From Pseudomonas vranovensis DSM 16006 (GTDB lineage: Bacteria > Pseudomonadota > Gammaproteobacteria > Pseudomonadales > Pseudomonadaceae): a stretch of DNA of 64,000 nt. Every line of letters begins with the position of its first letter. Position 1 is the stretch's first letter. The notes beneath the pieces were generated by a model. That model was not told the DNA's origin, made no database searches, and was given only the letters and a program-made list of their open reading frames with translations. Shown one piece after another: positions 26,791-33,428 of the stretch. Where the stretch lies: contig NZ_AUED01000001.1 in NCBI RefSeq assembly GCF_000425805.1, positions 496,001-560,000 of the forward strand, in the 5' to 3' direction. The position numbers and the translations under genes are program-made.

Positions 26791-27288
26791 ATGAGTAACC
26801 ACCTGCTATCCCTCCAGGAACTGGCCGCACCCGAAGGCGTCTGCTATGGCTGCGGTTGTTCCCACCCAAGCGGCTTGCACGTTAAAAGTCATTGGGACGA
26901 GGACGGTATTCACCTGATCTGCCGGCACTCACCGGACAGCACCTTTCTCGGATGGCCGGGGCTGGTGTACGGCGGGCTGCTGGCGATGCTGGTCGACTGC
27001 CATTCCAACTGGACGGCCATGGCTTACCACTACCGCGCCGAAGGCCGTGAACCCGGCAGTCTGCCACGCCTGGACTGCGTGACAGGGCAATTGAGCCTGA
27101 CCTACCTCAAGCCGACACCCATGGGGGTCGAGTTGCTGCTCAAGGCCCGGGTCGAAGGTGAGGTAGGGCGCAAGAGCCGGGTGATCTGCGAGGTGTGGGC
27201 CGGTGATGTGCTGACCGTGACGGCCGACTCGGTGTTCGTGCGGGTCGACACCGAGAAGCTCAAGCACAAGGCCCACGGTCAGGCTTGA
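26791..27288 (+). CDS. PaaI-type hotdog-fold thioesterase
   Basis: A 165-aa hotdog-fold protein, probable acyl-CoA thioesterase. The N-terminal CYGCGCSHPSGLHVK resembles the CFGCG..NP.GL motif of this group, and GWPGLVYGGLLAMLVDCHS is the conserved helix with the G-hhhG-hhD catalytic pattern. An AGGAAG ribosome-binding site sits just before ATG 26791. It is a single gene behind the permease terminator; its acyl substrate is unknown. Confidence 0.85.
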   Translation: MSNHLLSLQELAAPEGVCYGCGCSHPSGLHVKSHWDEDGIHLICRHSPDSTFLGWPGLVYGGLLAMLVDCHSNWTAMAYHYRAEGREPGSLPRLDCVTGQLSLTYLKPTPMGVELLLKARVEGEVGRKSRVICEVWAGDVLTVTADSVFVRVDTEKLKHKAHGQA

Positions 27289-27313
27289 AGCCAATCAAAG
27301 CGGTCGACACGCC

Positions 27314-28462
27314 TCAGCGCAGGGTGTCGACCATCTGTCCCAGGACATCCAGCACGGCGTCAGCCAGATCCTTGGAGCGTCGGCCGTTCCAGCCCGTTTG
27401 CGGGTTGGGGGCGTCATCGTGGTCCTTGAAGGGCATCTCCAGGGTCAGCGACAAGCAGTCGTAGGCCTGGCCGACGCTGTTGGCACCCAGGGTCAGGTTG
27501 GCCTGGCCCGGTGCCGAGCGCGGATAACCGTGAACCTGCTGGAAGTCCACCGTGCGTTTGCACAGGCTGTCGCGGAAGGTTTTCTCCAGTTCAGCCAGGC
27601 GCGGGGTGTAGCCAGGGTTGCCTTCGCAGCCGGCGGTGAACACATGCGGGATTTCTTCGTCGCCGTGTACATCCAGGAACAGGTCGACGCCGTGCTGCTT
27701 CATTTGCGACTGGGCGAAGAACACTTCCGGGCTCTTGTCGATACTTGCGCTCTGCCAGGCGCGGTTGAGGTCCTGGCCGGCGAAATTGGTACGCAGGTGG
27801 CCACGGAAGGCGCCATCGGGGTTCATGTTGGGGATCAAATAAAGGTCGGCTCGCTGGAGCAACGCCTGCAGCGTCGGGTCATTGTGCTCCAGGCGATCGA
27901 TCACGCCTTCCATGAACCATTCAGCCATGTGTTCGCCCGGGTGCTGTTGGGCAATCAGCCACAGCTTGCGTTTGCCGGGCGCACTGTCGCCTGCGCGCAG
28001 CAAGGGAATATCACGACCTTCAATGCTGCGGCCGGTGGCCAACAGTTCGACACCCGGCAAGTGCTTGGCGCGTTCGATCAATTGGTTGTGGCGGGAGCGG
28101 GGGTAGGGCTCGAAATAGGCGAACCAGGCCTGTGGCTGCTCGGCGGCAAGATCAAAGCTCAGGGCTTTGCCATCAAAGCGGGTGGGGACGCGGAACCAGT
28201 GCTGCTGATCGTAGGATGCCACTGCCTGGTAGCCTGTCCACGCCCCGTTATAGGATGACTGGCCGGCGTTCTCCAGGACGAAACCGTGCTGCTGGCCTGG
28301 GGTCAGGCCGCTGGCCTTAAAATGAAACCACTGGAAGTGACCGCTGTGGGTGTCGGGCCGTATAGCCAGGCGGGTCAGGCGCGGGTCACTGGCATCGTTG
28401 ATCAGGATATTGCCGGAATCGAAATCGCAGTCGATATGCAGAGGGGGCAGCGTCACAGTCAT
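27314..28462 (-). CDS. M14-family zinc carboxypeptidase (cytosolic carboxypeptidase-like)
   Basis: A 382-aa cytoplasmic metallocarboxypeptidase. An N-terminal beta-rich domain (about residues 1-125) precedes the peptidase domain. Zinc ligands are in QQHPGEHMAEW and FLDVHGDEE, the substrate-binding asparagine-arginine pair is in GQDLNRAW, and the catalytic glutamate is in LSLTLEMPFKD. This architecture matches the M14 cytosolic carboxypeptidase group, whose eukaryotic members trim polyglutamate side chains. I take ATG 28462; the upstream in-frame ATG 28492 adds ten residues. It has no signal peptide, and its natural substrate in bacteria is unclear. Confidence 0.9.
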   Translation of the reverse strand: MTVTLPPLHIDCDFDSGNILINDASDPRLTRLAIRPDTHSGHFQWFHFKASGLTPGQQHGFVLENAGQSSYNGAWTGYQAVASYDQQHWFRVPTRFDGKALSFDLAAEQPQAWFAYFEPYPRSRHNQLIERAKHLPGVELLATGRSIEGRDIPLLRAGDSAPGKRKLWLIAQQHPGEHMAEWFMEGVIDRLEHNDPTLQALLQRADLYLIPNMNPDGAFRGHLRTNFAGQDLNRAWQSASIDKSPEVFFAQSQMKQHGVDLFLDVHGDEEIPHVFTAGCEGNPGYTPRLAELEKTFRDSLCKRTVDFQQVHGYPRSAPGQANLTLGANSVGQAYDCLSLTLEMPFKDHDDAPNPQTGWNGRRSKDLADAVLDVLGQMVDTLR

Positions 28463-28510
28463 CACCAGGCACCTGTAGAGTTGTTGTGGCACCCACTCTA
28501 CACGCCTGGA

Positions 28511-29023
28511 TCAGGACCAGAAACCGATCGCTGCCAATGCTGCCAGACCCAGGCCTATGGCCACCGAGCAACCGCCCACCGACAAGGCCGCGCGTGGCTC
28601 GCGGTACCAGGCGTCGTGCCCCAGTCGCTGCGCTGGTGCCAGCAAGGTGCGCCAGCGCAGTTCGGTGGCGTGGAAGGCTTCGCGATGTTCGGGGGCGGCG
28701 TCCAGCCAGCGGCGAAAGTCGATGCGCTCGCTGGCCGTCACCTGCGGGCTCTGCAAGCGTACATACCATTGCCCGGCCATGCTCGCGAGGACGTCGCCTT
28801 GCGGGCGTACGCTCTGCAGGGCCTGGTTCATGTGGCGTTCGACAGTCAGTGCTGGCAGGCTCAGGCGTTCGGCGATGCTGGCAAAGCTCAGTTGGTCGAG
28901 GCGGCTGAGGAGGAAGACTTGCTGGACGCGACGCGGCAGCTTCTTCAGGTGTTGCAGCAGGGTGTCGTCCGCAAGGTGCTGGGATTCGGGTTGATGCTCA
29001 AGGGGCAGCAGCAGACGTGTCAT
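28511..29023 (-). CDS. FecI/FecR hybrid: sigma-70 region 4 plus FecR N-terminal domain and one membrane helix
   Basis: An unusual 170-aa protein. Residues about 20-72 form a sigma-70 region-4 HTH (LKKLPRRVQQVFLLSRLDQL, then SIAERLSLPALTVERHMNQA), as in FecI-type iron-responsive sigma factors, but region 2 is absent. Residues about 85-125 are the DUF4880 cytoplasmic domain of FecR anti-sigma factors (ERIDFRRWLDAAPEHREAFH). A single membrane helix ends the protein (GLGLAALAAIGFW), so the periplasmic FecR sensor domain is missing. An AAGGAG ribosome-binding site precedes ATG 29023; a TTG at 29029 is possible. A Fur-like box lies at 29091-29105 and PrrF sits just beyond, so iron control is likely. 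Confidence 0.85.
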   Translation of the reverse strand: MTRLLLPLEHQPESQHLADDTLLQHLKKLPRRVQQVFLLSRLDQLSFASIAERLSLPALTVERHMNQALQSVRPQGDVLASMAGQWYVRLQSPQVTASERIDFRRWLDAAPEHREAFHATELRWRTLLAPAQRLGHDAWYREPRAALSVGGCSVAIGLGLAALAAIGFWS

Positions 29024-29090
29024 GTACAAGCTCCTTGCTCAGAGGGGGAAGGGGGCGTCCTCCGTGACGCTGCAACAGCTTAGTCTTAAC

Positions 29091-29105
29091 GAGATTGATT
29101 CTCAA
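29091..29105 (-). promoter_or_regulatory. Fur-like box upstream of the FecI/FecR hybrid gene
   Basis: GAGATTGATTCTCAA, read on the minus strand, matches the 7-1-7 Fur consensus (TGATAATCATTATCA) at about 11 of 15 positions. It lies 68 bp before the hybrid gene start, a typical promoter position. Confidence 0.5.
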
Positions 29106-29208
29106 GTGCTAATTCTGCAAAGCGCCGTTACATCCTTCACGATGAGACATTCATTTGCTATCATCGCGGCCATTCAAGCAGCACCCGCCTTCATTAGCCT
29201 GAAGAGCC

Positions 29209-29237
29209 AAAAAAAAGACCCGGCAAAAAGCCGGGTC
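29209..29237 (-). terminator. Rho-independent terminator of prrF
   Basis: An 8-bp stem GACCCGGC/GCCGGGTC (29217-29224 and 29230-29237) with a 5-nt loop, followed on the minus strand by eight T residues (29216-29209). Confidence 0.92.
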
Positions 29238-29323
29238 AAAAACCGTGATTAGCCTGATGAGGAGATAATCTGAGAGTCCGACCTAAGGGCTTTCAGTTTA
29301 TCCAACCAGTCTCGCGACCAGTT
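29209..29323 (-). ncRNA. prrF: PrrF iron-responsive small RNA
   Basis: A minus-strand RNA of about 115 nt. Read 5'->3' it begins AACTGGTCGCGAG, carries the conserved antisense core TTATCTCCTCATCAGGC that pairs with mRNAs of iron-containing proteins, then TAATCACGG, and ends in a rho-independent terminator. This is the known layout of Pseudomonas PrrF, the RyhB counterpart, which lowers expression of iron-rich enzymes when iron is scarce. A sigma-70 promoter overlapped by a Fur box lies immediately upstream. Only one copy is in this window, unlike the tandem pair of P. aeruginosa. Confidence 0.93.
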
Positions 29324-29329
29324 GTGAGC

Positions 29330-29358
29330 AATAATAATCGTTATCATTTGCAAGTCAA
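29330..29358 (-). promoter_or_regulatory. prrF promoter with overlapping Fur box
   Basis: On the minus strand: -35 TTGACT (29353-29358), a 16-bp spacer, -10 TATTAT (29331-29336), and a start about 7 nt further at 29323/29324. A Fur box, AATGATAACGATTATTATT (29330-29348), covers the spacer and -10, so Fur-Fe(II) would block transcription when iron is plentiful. Confidence 0.88.
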
Positions 29359-29452
29359 ATGAATTTTCCGTCATTCCGTAAAAAAACTTTACCGAATGCG
29401 CTCCCTCCTTGAATGAGCGGCGCTGGCGCCGTCATTGCAGCGACTTCCCACG

Positions 29453-29797
29453 TTAGCTTTCTGTCCCTCTACACCGCTGTTCGGTGGGCAGGTGTTCGAC
29501 CATGGCCTTGGCCAGGCTGATCATGTGCACCACGGCCAAGGCCAGTTGTCGCGGCCTTCCCTGCAACCCGTTGGCCGACTCGCAGGCGGTGGCTTCGGCA
29601 CACAGCAGCAACTGCACGGCACGTTCGGCCGCTTCAGGGCCGCTGAGGGTTCCTCGCGGAATCAACCAGGGTTCCTCCGCTGTCGGTATCACCGGTGTTG
29701 GATTGAGGTAGAAATCCAGCGCTTTGCGGGCAGCGTCGCTCGTGCTCAGTGCTTCGTTATCCAGGTTGATATCCATTTCAGGAAGTGTCTGTTTCAT
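29453..29797 (-). CDS. DUF6124 (DUF3077-type) protein
   Basis: A 114-aa soluble protein of the Pseudomonas-restricted DUF6124 family. The AARKALDFYLNP segment near residue 30 and the helical segment LSGPEAAERAVQLLLCAEAT are its recognisable features. No function is known. ATG 29797 gives MKQTLPE, the usual family start; an upstream in-frame start at 29812 adds five residues. It is divergent from the CI-like repressor gene, which may control it. Confidence 0.78.
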   Translation of the reverse strand: MKQTLPEMDINLDNEALSTSDAARKALDFYLNPTPVIPTAEEPWLIPRGTLSGPEAAERAVQLLLCAEATACESANGLQGRPRQLALAVVHMISLAKAMVEHLPTEQRCRGTES

Positions 29798-29875
29798 TCG
29801 GCTACCTGCCATATGGGTAAGCGATCTAAGGTAGGCGCGAATAATAATACGTAATGTAGTTGTGACCGCTTTTTA

Positions 29876-29895
29876 AATACTACAATTTGTGTATT
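29876..29895. promoter_or_regulatory. Candidate operator of the CI-like repressor
   Basis: The imperfect 20-bp palindrome AATACTACAATTTGTGTATT lies in the AT-rich gap between the DUF6124 and CI-like genes; an additional TGTAGT (29855-29860)/ACTACA (29879-29884) pair overlaps it. The symmetry and position fit an autoregulatory site. Not verified. Confidence 0.4.
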
Positions 29896-29919
29896 GAACG
29901 TCAGGGAGCAGTCCGTATC

Positions 29920-30591
29920 GTGCCAGCGATGGATAATTGGACTGATCTGGTCAAGGCCAGGATGCGTGAACTCAAAGTCACGCAGGAGAATCTCGCCGAA
30001 CGCATCGGGGTCACCCAGGGTGCAGTCGGGCATTGGTTGCGCGAAGAACGCGAGCCCAGGCTCAGGGTGCTGAACCAGATTCTGATCGAGGTCGGCTTGC
30101 CGCCATTGCAGATGGTGTTTCCCTCGCACACGTCGGAAACCAGCGGCACTTATGGTGTGCTGCCCGGTACATCGGCGGCAACCCTGGACCTGGAGCACCA
30201 GAAGCACGATCTGTATTTTCGCTACCCGATCCTGTCCTGGGATGGCCTGGAGACGATCGAGCCTACAAGGCCTTGCGTGCGCCAGTCGTCGGACCATGTC
30301 GCGTTGGGGCGAACGTTCTGGTTGCCGGTGGAAGGCGATGCGATGACCGCGCCAATGGGCTTGAGTGTGCCGGAGGGCATGCTGATCCTGGTGGATACGG
30401 GCGTGAGCGTCGCGCCGGGCAAGCTGGTGATCGCCCGCTTGCCCGATCGCACGGGCCCGGTTTTTCGCCAACTGATCGAGGAGGGTGGCCAACGCTACCT
30501 GAAACCCCTCAATCCGACGTACCCCAAGGCAGTGTTCACGGCGCAGTGTGAAGTGCTGGGTGTGGTGGTGCAGGCGTTTGTGAGGTTTTGA
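29920..30591 (+). CDS. CI/LexA-like repressor without self-cleavage residues
   Basis: A protein of about 223 aa with the layout of phage CI repressors: an N-terminal HTH (LVKARMRELKVTQENLAERI followed by GVTQGAVGHWLREEREPRL) and a C-terminal S24-like dimerisation domain that aligns closely with lambda CI through EGDAMTAP, VPEGMLILVDTG, PVFRQLIEEGG and PLNPTYP. The catalytic serine (GNSM in CI) is alanine here (GDAM), and the catalytic lysine position (TFKK) is arginine (VFRQ), so RecA-induced self-cleavage should not occur. No phage genes surround it. GTG 29920 and ATG 29929 are both plausible starts. Confidence 0.85.
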   Translation: MPAMDNWTDLVKARMRELKVTQENLAERIGVTQGAVGHWLREEREPRLRVLNQILIEVGLPPLQMVFPSHTSETSGTYGVLPGTSAATLDLEHQKHDLYFRYPILSWDGLETIEPTRPCVRQSSDHVALGRTFWLPVEGDAMTAPMGLSVPEGMLILVDTGVSVAPGKLVIARLPDRTGPVFRQLIEEGGQRYLKPLNPTYPKAVFTAQCEVLGVVVQAFVRF

Positions 30592-30595
30592 ACGG

Positions 30596-30646
30596 CATCG
30601 CGGGACAAGTTCGCTCCTACAGTAGGAGCGAACTTGTCCCGCGATG
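30596..30646. terminator. Perfect 24-bp palindrome between convergent genes
   Basis: Arms 30596-30619 and 30623-30646 are perfectly complementary over 24 bp with loop CAG; the arm contains CGCGGGACAAGTTCGCTCC, a Pseudomonas REP-family sequence. Lying between the CI-like gene and the liuD stop, it can terminate both transcripts. Confidence 0.85.
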
Positions 30647-30651
30647 TGTTT

Positions 30652-32607
30652 TCAGTCTTCTTGCAGCTCCACCAGCACAGCCCCTTCACTGACCATCTCG
30701 CCTTCCTGGCAAAACAGCGCCTTGACCGTCCCGGCGTGCGCTGCGCGAATGCTGTGTTCCATCTTCATGGCTTCCAGCACCACCAATTGAGCACCCGCTT
30801 CAACCGTCTGCCCTACCTCGACCAATACCCGCACGATACTGCCGTTCATGGGCGCACTCAGGCCGCCCTGGTGGCTGTGACTGGCATCGGCCTCGGCAAT
30901 CGGGTCAAACGGGGTCACCGCGTGCAGCTCGCCGTCCCACTGCAGATAGAGGGTGGTGCCGCGACGGATTGCCAAGTGCCGACGGCGCAGGCCATCCTGC
31001 TCGATCACTAGCTGTTCGCCGTCCAGTGTCAGCGTTGGCGCAGCCGCATGACTGAGCCCCACGGCCTGGTCCTGGCCGTTGCAATTCAAGTGCAGGCTGA
31101 TGTGCGCCGGCACGCCCAGGCGCAAGCCCGCGTTTGCCGCCCAGGGCGAGTGGCGATCATCGCCACGGTGCTGGACCGGCTGGCTCTGAATCCAGGCTTC
31201 AGCCGCGGCCTGCCAGAACGCAGCGGGCAGTGGCTGGGTGGCTGGCAACAACTGTTCCTGATAGCGCGGGATGAAACCGGTATCGAGCTCGGCCTCGGCG
31301 AACGCCGGGTGCGCAAGGATCCGCCGCAGAAACGCGATGTTGGTTTTCAGCCCGCCAATGGCGAACTCATCGAGCATCGCCAGCAAGCGCAGGCGTGCCT
31401 GTTCGCGGGTCTGGCCCCAGGCGATCAGCTTGCCCAGCATCGGGTCGTAGAACGGCGAGATGCTGTCGCCTTCACTGACGCCACTGTCGACCCGGCGCCC
31501 TTCACCCGGCGCCGACTCGCGGTACAGCACCAGTTGCCCGGTAGCAGGGAGGAAGTCGTTGGCGGGGTCTTCTGCGTACAGGCGTACTTCGATGGCGTGG
31601 CCATTGAGCGGCACTTGTTCCTGGGTGATCGGCAATGGCTCGCCGCAAGCCACGCGGATCTGCCAGGCCACCAGGTCCAGGCCGGTAATGGCTTCGGTCA
31701 CCGGGTGCTCCACCTGCAGGCGGGTGTTCATTTCCATGAAGAAGAATTCGCCGCGGGCATCGAGCAGGAATTCGACGGTACCGGCGCCGACATAACCAAT
31801 GGCCTGGGCGGCCTTGACCGCCGCTTCGCCCATGGCCTGGCGCTGGGCTGGGCTCAGGCCTGGTGCTGGGGCCTCCTCGACGACTTTCTGGTGGCGGCGC
31901 TGGATCGAGCAGTCGCGCTCATTGAGGTACAGGCAGTTGCCGTGCTGGTCGGCGAATACCTGGATCTCTACGTGACGCGGCTTGAGTACGTACTTCTCCA
32001 CCAGCATGCGCGCATCGCCAAACGACGACTGCGCTTCACGCTGGGCCGAGGCCAGGGCTTCGGCCAGCTGGCTTTCGCTTTCGACCACCTTCATGCCCTT
32101 GCCGCCACCCCCGGCGGTGGCCTTGAGCAGCACCGGGTAGCCGATGGACTCGGCGGCAGCGCGGAAGGTTTCCAGGTCCTGGGCTTCACCGTGGTAGCCC
32201 GGCACCAGGGGGACGCCGGCTTGCTCCATCAGGGCCTTGGCGGCCGACTTGCTGCCCATCGCGTCGATAGCGCTGGCCGGCGGGCCGAGGAAGATCAGCC
32301 CGGCCGCTTCGATGGCACGGGCGAAGCCCGCGTTCTCCGACAGGAAGCCGTAACCCGGGTGAATCGCCTGGGCGCCGCTGGCCTTGGCCGCGGCCAGCAG
32401 CTTGTCGATGTCCAGGTAGCTTTCGGCGGCCTTGGCTCCACCCAGGTCAACGCGGATATCGGCTTCACGGCTGTGCCGCGCTTCACGGTCGATGGCGCTG
32501 TGTACGGCCACGGTGGTCAGGCCCAGGGCCTTGGCGGTGCGCATCACCCGGCAAGCGATCTCGCCGCGGTTGGCAACCAGCAGGGTAGTCAATGGCGTGC
32601 GGGTCAT
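30652..32607 (-). CDS. liuD: 3-Methylcrotonyl-CoA carboxylase, alpha (biotin) subunit
   Basis: A 651-aa biotin carboxylase plus biotin carrier protein for leucine/isovalerate breakdown. It carboxylates its own biotin with ATP and bicarbonate for transfer to 3-methylcrotonyl-CoA. Seen: VANRGEIACRVMRTAKALG at the start, the ATP-grasp loop KATAGGGGKGM near residue 160, EMNTRLQVEHPVTE near 290, and the biotin site VLEAMKMEHSI near the C-terminus. It is the last gene of liuABCD and overlaps liuC by 4 bp. Confidence 0.95.
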   Translation of the reverse strand: MTRTPLTTLLVANRGEIACRVMRTAKALGLTTVAVHSAIDREARHSREADIRVDLGGAKAAESYLDIDKLLAAAKASGAQAIHPGYGFLSENAGFARAIEAAGLIFLGPPASAIDAMGSKSAAKALMEQAGVPLVPGYHGEAQDLETFRAAAESIGYPVLLKATAGGGGKGMKVVESESQLAEALASAQREAQSSFGDARMLVEKYVLKPRHVEIQVFADQHGNCLYLNERDCSIQRRHQKVVEEAPAPGLSPAQRQAMGEAAVKAAQAIGYVGAGTVEFLLDARGEFFFMEMNTRLQVEHPVTEAITGLDLVAWQIRVACGEPLPITQEQVPLNGHAIEVRLYAEDPANDFLPATGQLVLYRESAPGEGRRVDSGVSEGDSISPFYDPMLGKLIAWGQTREQARLRLLAMLDEFAIGGLKTNIAFLRRILAHPAFAEAELDTGFIPRYQEQLLPATQPLPAAFWQAAAEAWIQSQPVQHRGDDRHSPWAANAGLRLGVPAHISLHLNCNGQDQAVGLSHAAAPTLTLDGEQLVIEQDGLRRRHLAIRRGTTLYLQWDGELHAVTPFDPIAEADASHSHQGGLSAPMNGSIVRVLVEVGQTVEAGAQLVVLEAMKMEHSIRAAHAGTVKALFCQEGEMVSEGAVLVELQED

Positions 32608-33428
32608 GGGCGCGGCTCCTTGTTCGACGGTTCGCCCTGCCAGGCGGGTGTGCGTTTTTCCAGGAAGGCGCGCAAGCCTTCCTGGCCCTCGGGGCTCACG
32701 CGGATACGGGCGATGGCATTCTCGCAGTAGCGGCGCAGGGCAGGGGTCAGCTCGCCGTGACCCACTTCACGCAGCAACTCTTTGCTGGCACGCATGGCCT
32801 GGGGGCTGTTGAGCAGCAGGTTGTCGATCCACAGTTCGACCTGTTGCTCAAGCTCGGCGGCCGGGTACGCCTCGGCCAGCAAGCCCAGTTCACGGGCGCG
32901 CTCGCCACTGAAGCGCTCGGCGGTCAGGGCATAGCGACGTGCGGCGCGCTCGCCCATGGCCTGTACCACGAACGGGCTGATCACCGCAGGCGCCAGGCCG
33001 ATGCGTACTTCCGACAGGCACAGTTGTGCCTCGCGGGTGCCGATGGCCATGTCGCAGCAACTGATCAGGCCCAGTGCGCCGCCAAAGGCTGCGCCCTGGA
33101 CCACGGCCAGAGTCGGTACCTTGAGCTTGGCCAGGTTGTACATCAGCTCTGCCAGCTCGCGGGCATCGTCCAGGTTGGTGTTGTAGTCAAGCGCTGCCGA
33201 TTGCTGCATCCAGGCCAGGTCGGCGCCTGCGCTGAAATGCCGGCCACGGCCGCGCAGCAGGACGAAGCGCAAGCTGGCGTCGGCGGCGATCTGGTCGATG
33301 GCCAGGATCAGCTCGCGGATCATCTGGGCGTTGAAGGCGTTGTTCTTGTCTTCCCGGCTCAGCCACAGGGTGGCGAAACCACGGGAGTCCTTGTTCAGTT
33401 CAAGGGTAGTGAAGTCGCTCATGCTCAC
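32604..33428 (-). CDS. liuC: 3-Methylglutaconyl-CoA hydratase
   Basis: A 274-aa enoyl-CoA hydratase/isomerase-family enzyme that hydrates 3-methylglutaconyl-CoA to HMG-CoA in the leucine pathway. The crotonase fold motifs [16 protein letters not shown] and [20 protein letters not shown] form the oxyanion hole region. It overlaps liuB and liuD by 4 bp each, as expected for one operon. Assignment to the leucine pathway rests on this placement. Confidence 0.93.

Follow-up and report, generated by a model that had tools for sequence, protein, structure and literature searches.

How is a repressor of the lambda CI type switched once it has lost the ability to cleave itself? This question is raised, and made testable for an SOS-locked repressor, by a locus in the window, the whole stretch of 64,000 nucleotides from Pseudomonas vranovensis DSM 16006 that we analyzed. 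The gene and the positions that bear on its cleavage are as follows:

29929..30591, plus strand: CI/PrtR-like repressor gene, 220 aa (HTH_3 5e-8, Peptidase_S24 1e-17, lambda CI 3e-19)
29953..30084, plus strand: helix-turn-helix DNA-binding domain, residues 9-52 (PF01381; helices in the AlphaFold2 model)
30247..30252, plus strand: position of the scissile Ala-Gly, occupied by Leu107-Glu108 (alignment column)
30340..30342, plus strand: catalytic Ser position, here Ala138 (GCG; alignment with CI)
30466..30468, plus strand: catalytic Lys position, here Arg180 (CGC; alignment with CI)

The open reading frame runs from ATG 29929 to the end of the stop codon at 30591. The original prediction had recognized a real reading frame but started it at 29920, a GTG in the same frame that precedes the ATG by three codons; this GTG and TTG 29887, also in frame, are possible alternative starts. 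The best PDB match retrieved with HMMER is lambda CI (3bdn, E 3.4e-19, residues 11-215), and the C-terminal domain of the AlphaFold2 model (mean pLDDT 84 for the whole repressor), which is confidently modeled and of the CI type, superimposes on CI 1f39 at 1.3 Å with 47% identity using Foldseek. Both comparisons agree with the earlier claim that this domain aligns with lambda CI. The CI part of the alignment that had been proposed as a check pairs Ala138 with the CI serine of GNSMTAP and Arg180 with the first lysine of FKK, columns that we take to be Ser149 and Lys192 of lambda CI, and confirms the predicted replacement of the catalytic Ser by Ala and of the catalytic Lys by Arg. The Foldseek superposition on CI indicates that these columns are the right ones; the linker, which holds the Ala-Gly column, is aligned less surely than the C-terminal domain. 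A deletion in the linker was ruled out, as the alignment contains substitutions.

The protein combines a helix-turn-helix with a C-terminal domain of the S24 fold, as S24 self-cleaving repressors do, and has none of their three other hallmarks, the catalytic Ser, the catalytic Lys and the scissile Ala-Gly. The gene is nevertheless maintained under purifying selection, as indicated by dN/dS values of 0.13-0.18 in four pairs. By its sequence the repressor is predicted to be uncleavable, with nucleophile, base and scissile bond gone and the helix-turn-helix and CI-type C-terminal fold kept. Since self-cleavage appears to be lost, SOS should not inactivate it, and the residues found in this chromosomal protein of the CI/PrtR type support the proposed domesticated repressor beyond the reach of SOS.

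A regulator match at 1e-10 was found in 149 of 199 genomes of the genus; 8 weak matches (1e-12 to 1e-34) were set aside and the other 141 were all fetched. Regulators with Arg in the Lys column (Arg-type) occur in 137 of the 199 genomes, as 142 genes at 138 loci, one of which was fetched twice. In the other four of the 141 fetched genomes (G018, G056, G094 and G192), the sole regulator is of a cleavable type that retains Ser, Lys and Ala-Gly. Arg is present in 142 of the 146 regulator genes of this census, the other four being of the cleavable type with Lys. The Arg-type genes have Ala (104), Ser (32), Thr (four) or Leu (two) in the Ser column, and five of the 142 keep Ala-Gly. A wider family sample, which does not distinguish Arg from cleavable type, gave a match at 1e-38 in 57 of 298 genomes and in two of 19 genera. 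We also aligned a named set (81 rows, all with Arg; 58 with Ala and 23 with Ser), in which the use of GDAMTAPM as one of the search seeds biases the share of Ala, a limit that does not apply to Arg180, which lies in no seed.

We built a tree from 93 dereplicated rows, comprising 84 Arg-type and nine cleavable-type sequences (six chromosomal, the paralog L003 of the window's genome and two phage repressors), and the two types split with a support of 100/99. On this tree a single change to Arg falls in the Lys column, which holds Arg in 84/84 Arg-type rows, whereas at least nine changes fall in the Ser column (A57, S24 and T3 among the 84). Ala-Gly is found in all nine cleavable-type rows and in 6/84 Arg-type rows, the latter displaying 29 different dipeptides in a linker whose alignment is less sure. 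The simplest order of loss is that the base went first, followed by drift of the nucleophile and of the scissile bond; the fixed Arg may have a structural role of its own. The repressor is vertically inherited and of the CI/PrtR type, and its predicted loss of cleavage is genus-wide and ordered and is not a case of isolated decay. The locus thereby offers a natural lineage in which CI-type self-cleavage was lost piecewise and in which repressor, operators and partner gene are conserved across much of the genus.

That partner and the gene behind it stand on the other strand:

29453..29797, minus strand: DUF6124 gene, divergent from the repressor; conservation favors ATG 29797 as its start, with an in-frame alternative at 29812 (PF19619, E 1.5e-10)
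29209..29358, minus strand: PrrF sRNA gene with promoter region, behind DUF6124 (Rfam RF00444, 168 bits)

Among the named loci (the best 80 of 153 matches), liuD lies on the other side of the regulator in 80/80 and a divergent DUF6124 homolog is present in 79/80, with starts ~130 bp apart except in the truncated L060. At L051, the adjacent DUF6124 and PrrF genes are gone, with other DNA instead, and the regulator and operators remain. In the census, a DUF6124 gene accompanies 138/138 Arg-type loci vs 0/4 cleavable-type loci, but the tree joins loss of the Lys and linkage to DUF6124 in a single event, which gives the association an N of 1 and makes the counts non-independent. The same dependence through common descent holds for the co-occurrence and PrrF counts given below. 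DUF6124 was found in 0/3 further cleavable-type loci (0/7 chromosomal cleavable-type loci in total). Across the 199 genomes, both genes occur in 137, the Arg-type regulator alone in none, DUF6124 alone in 21 and neither in 41. Residual distances of DUF6124 and repressor, with liuD and liuB removed, correlate over 77 loci (r 0.44-0.47; 0.44 for the C-terminal and 0.47 for the DNA-binding domain), and we dropped such distance-matrix co-evolution as proof, as it is positive but specific to neither domain. Tandem duplicated regulators, both Arg-type, lie beside one DUF6124 gene at L160, L163, L164 and L167, and a CrcZ sRNA gene is found at the 3' side of the regulator in two distant loci (L187 and L189).

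The Pfam domains of eight flanking proteins (25.2-36.4 kb) are metabolic, transport, peptidase or sigma-factor domains, and the only two PHROG matches among them link two metabolic enzymes to families of unknown function. These eight proteins include none of phage or pyocin type, which fits the earlier statement that no phage genes accompany the repressor. The window contains two weak LexA-box-like matches, both away from the locus. One protein of the window (28514-29029) joins sigma-70 region 4, which we presume to be FecI-like, to a DUF4880 domain; its gene may be an iron-sigma/anti-sigma gene that has been fused or has decayed.

The region between the two divergent genes contains palindromes:

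29845..29861, plus strand: operator-like O1, imperfect palindrome TAATAC-N5-GTAGTT (TAC-N5-GTR at -85/-86 in 81/81 loci)
29878..29894, plus strand: operator-like O2, imperfect palindrome TACTAC-N5-GTGTAT (at -52/-53 in 80/81 loci)
29915..29921, plus strand: conserved GTATCGT, perhaps the right half-site of a third operator, O3 (positions -14 to -8 nearly invariant)

The centers of O1 and O2 are 33 bp apart in nearly all loci and 34 bp apart in L046 and L072. Across 32 diverse loci, the most frequent base at a position is found on average in 0.69 of rows in O1 and 0.85 in O2, against 0.49 for the rest of the sequence upstream of -27. Complete O3 sites (TAC-N5-GTA) exist in some relatives, such as L162 and L177, and in two cleavable loci that we take to be PrtR-like, where the sites lie at -85, -52 and -26; this layout suggests that the operators may derive from a phage-type immunity region. 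GTATCGT varies at third codon positions, hence its conservation is perhaps that of coding sequence and not of an operator. In a sample of 38 Arg-type genes (from the first 40 loci fetched by place, mostly from weaker matches), the strict pattern occurs at least once in 28 and is absent from ten, four of these in tandem pairs. A hairpin in the operator region was rejected (z 0.07). We infer with good support that the repressor would bind both predicted operators and repress both genes, perhaps cooperatively, and the twin palindromes and the adjacency of the genes favor the divergent DUF6124 gene as the likely target that had been suggested. No second regulon target emerged from applying the operator profile to the 28 other DUF6124 loci of genome G010 and the four of the window's genome, or from an IUPAC genome scan.

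DUF6124 (DUF3077 being presumably its older name) was not found by name in the literature searched. The linked protein is modeled as a short N-terminal helix followed by a helical hairpin (mean pLDDT 76), a fold search yielded no significant match, antirepressor or other, and its gene is under purifying selection (dN/dS 0.10-0.18, four pairs). The window's genome has five DUF6124 genes and G010 has 29. Among the 32 that are unlinked to the repressor in these two genomes (L119-L146 in G010, L149-L152 in the window's genome), 31 adjoin a C4 antisense RNA detected with Rfam (27/28 and 4/4, respectively); in G010, L134 lacks C4 and at L145 the C4 overlaps a truncated gene. C4 was absent from all 13 repressor-linked DUF6124 loci scanned and from 27000-33000 of the window. 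The linked and C4-type proteins are homologous (hhalign 99.6%, E 3.6e-24). Counted in reverse, a Pfam-detected DUF6124 gene adjoins 27 of the 35 C4 RNAs over the cut-off in G010 and 4/8 in the window's genome; for the former, this link suggests their regulatory target. Of the eight other C4 RNAs of G010, six (L206, L207 and L209-L212) precede small proteins of ~90-100 aa, two of them DUF6124-like by eye. These six proteins are absent from the matches of the Pfam DUF6124 search and are perhaps part of a wider C4-gated small-protein family.

The C4 RNAs pair with the genes that they precede. The longest stretch of a C4 RNA that is perfectly complementary to the 30 nt preceding the start of its own gene averages 8.1 nt, vs 5.4 nt for 812 mismatched pairs, and none of 10,000 permutations was as high (p 1e-4; 29 cassettes with a defined start). 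The 27 different pairing words indicate that pairing between C4 and ribosome-binding site co-varies. In six of the 29 C4 RNAs the pairing is only 5-6 nt and no better than control, and in three more (L123, L132 and L138) the longest match is off the usual place. The arrangement of P1 immI, in which C4 lies upstream of and is complementary to a ribosome-binding region, was found for the unlinked genes and not for the linked one. Translation of the DUF6124 paralogs thus looks gated by C4 antisense RNAs. Phage P1 uses a C4 antisense RNA to control the antirepressor Ant, according to the available parts of two reports (PMC8201110, PMC5320573), and C4 and c4-a1b1 are listed by Weinberg 2010 (PMC2864571), the main text of which, as available, contains neither the word DUF nor antirepressor.

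We tentatively favor a model in which DUF6124 is an antirepressor-like partner of the cleavage-dead repressor and replaces self-cleavage. The repressor would occupy the two predicted operators between its own gene and the DUF6124 gene, and DUF6124 would bind the repressor and relieve repression, so that the pair would form a double-negative switch; inactivation by a partner protein would be SOS-independent and reversible, and C4-gated paralogs could act on the switch in trans. Such antagonism is suggested by the position and exclusivity of DUF6124 and by analogy with C4 systems, and the repressor, judged from its residues, is uncleavable, as expected of the repressor in a repressor/antirepressor pair. 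We hold the model below an even chance because DUF6124 occurs alone in 21 genomes, where C4-type members must act beyond this repressor, and because the association has a single origin. Moreover, a C4 followed by a small gene could also match a different product of P1 immI, for example Icd. DUF6124 nonetheless gains a concrete hypothesis, that of C4-gated antirepressor-like proteins. It is a more speculative and rather unlikely extension that a phage immunity circuit became a host network, with the dead repressor as hub, DUF6124 as antagonist and, in some genomes, just under 30 dispersed C4-gated cassettes acting on the same or related repressors, as a many-input SOS-independent switch that touches the PrrF iron sRNA.

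Two other accounts of DUF6124 are live as the main rivals. It could be a mere repressed output, with PrrF perhaps a second one by read-through and the repressor sensing some ligand or its own level, a possibility that we consider real though doubtful. The palindromes between the two genes are as expected from this account, and a terminator scan found no terminator-like site between the DUF6124 stop (29453) and PrrF. PrrF lies on the DUF6124 side in 79/80 named loci, in 75 of them no more than ~620 bp from where the regulator starts. Within the short stretch fetched for the census it is present in 131/138 Arg-type vs 0/4 cleavable-type loci; two PrrF copies occur in 65/65 genomes with an Arg-type regulator vs 17/34 without (first 99 genomes). 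However, PrrF is 2.3-3.5 kb away in the remaining four named loci and has a promoter-like site of its own, so synteny alone may explain the neighborhood, and a plain output leaves the DUF6124 homologs in C4 cassettes without a reason. Alternatively, and with slightly lower probability, DUF6124 would be a corepressor that aids repressor binding in a homeostatic autoregulated unit, as DdrR does with UmuDAb: in the available parts of the reports, that pair has a shared operator over both promoters, and DdrR enhances UmuDAb binding (PMC7273328, PMC11332147). The lack of a DUF6124 match in 14 control genomes fits a genus-specific partner of this kind, but UmuDAb belongs to the DNA-damage response, a repressor and corepressor without cleavage would have no evident way out, and the C4 pairing at the paralogs resembles the control of an antirepressor.

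The two remaining explanations concern the repressor itself. The original prediction offered superinfecting phages as an alternative target, and a domesticated repressor that confers immunity against incoming phages with the same operator would agree with its phage/pyocin-type descent, with relatives in 349 phage records and with the -85, -52 and -26 sites of the two PrtR-like loci. We nevertheless consider this role improbable: the best phage relative is only 42% identical among the matches listed, none of 50,697 phage records contains a match to the linked DUF6124 (one C4-type DUF6124 matched a single phage record, at its edge, and no plasmid), phage-type neighbors are absent from the eight proteins scanned, and the strict operator pattern is nowhere else convincing in the window's genome, with two of its five matches at the locus and the three elsewhere at or below the level of the reversed control pattern (19 matches). 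Least probable, and by our estimate very unlikely, is that the repressor is still cleaved by way of a substitute residue or a host protease. A Lys-to-Arg LexA reportedly cleaves slowly at high pH, and Ser is kept in 24/84 and Ala-Gly in 6/84 dereplicated relatives, but the copy in the window lacks Ser, Lys and Ala-Gly together, and Arg is constant among the 84 Arg-type rows and nearly so in the census.

Neither the repressor-DUF6124 pair nor the link between C4 and DUF6124 is described among the matches listed in the literature on S24 repressors, C4 RNA and PrtR, and several known systems share parts of this architecture. Like lambda CI, P22-type C2 and PrtR, the repressor has a helix-turn-helix, an S24 C-terminal domain and palindromes beside its gene; unlike them, it has lost Ser, Lys and Ala-Gly and has no phage or pyocin genes in view. 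In two phage relatives, a Cro-like gene stands where DUF6124 does here (an XRE annotation at L199, by eye at L198). UmuDAb-DdrR of Acinetobacter likewise has an S24 repressor that shares its operator with a divergently encoded small partner confined to the genus, and is set apart, as far as it is described in the parts available, by its action in the DNA-damage response, whereas the catalytic residues are absent here.

The Gifsy repressors GfoR and GtgR with their GfoA-type antirepressors resemble the present pair in that an uncleavable repressor has a small antirepressor, here proposed, as its exit. In the available accounts, the Gifsy repressors match the N-terminal domain of CI only and their antirepressors are controlled by LexA, whereas the present repressor retains the entire domain in a dead form and the surroundings of its locus showed no LexA-box-like site. 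The immI region of P1 and P7 (C4, Icd, Ant) resembles the unlinked DUF6124 genes, with a C4 directly upstream that is complementary to the ribosome-binding region of the small gene; it differs from the 27 C4-DUF6124 cassettes dispersed over the chromosome in one genome and from the linked copy, which has operators and no C4. In the TF-smORF modules of Vibrio prophages, as partially described, the small gene is switched on by the transcription factor and encodes a protein that inactivates the prophage master repressor; these modules nonetheless share with our proposed switch a small protein beside a transcription factor and an SOS-free route to repressor inactivation.
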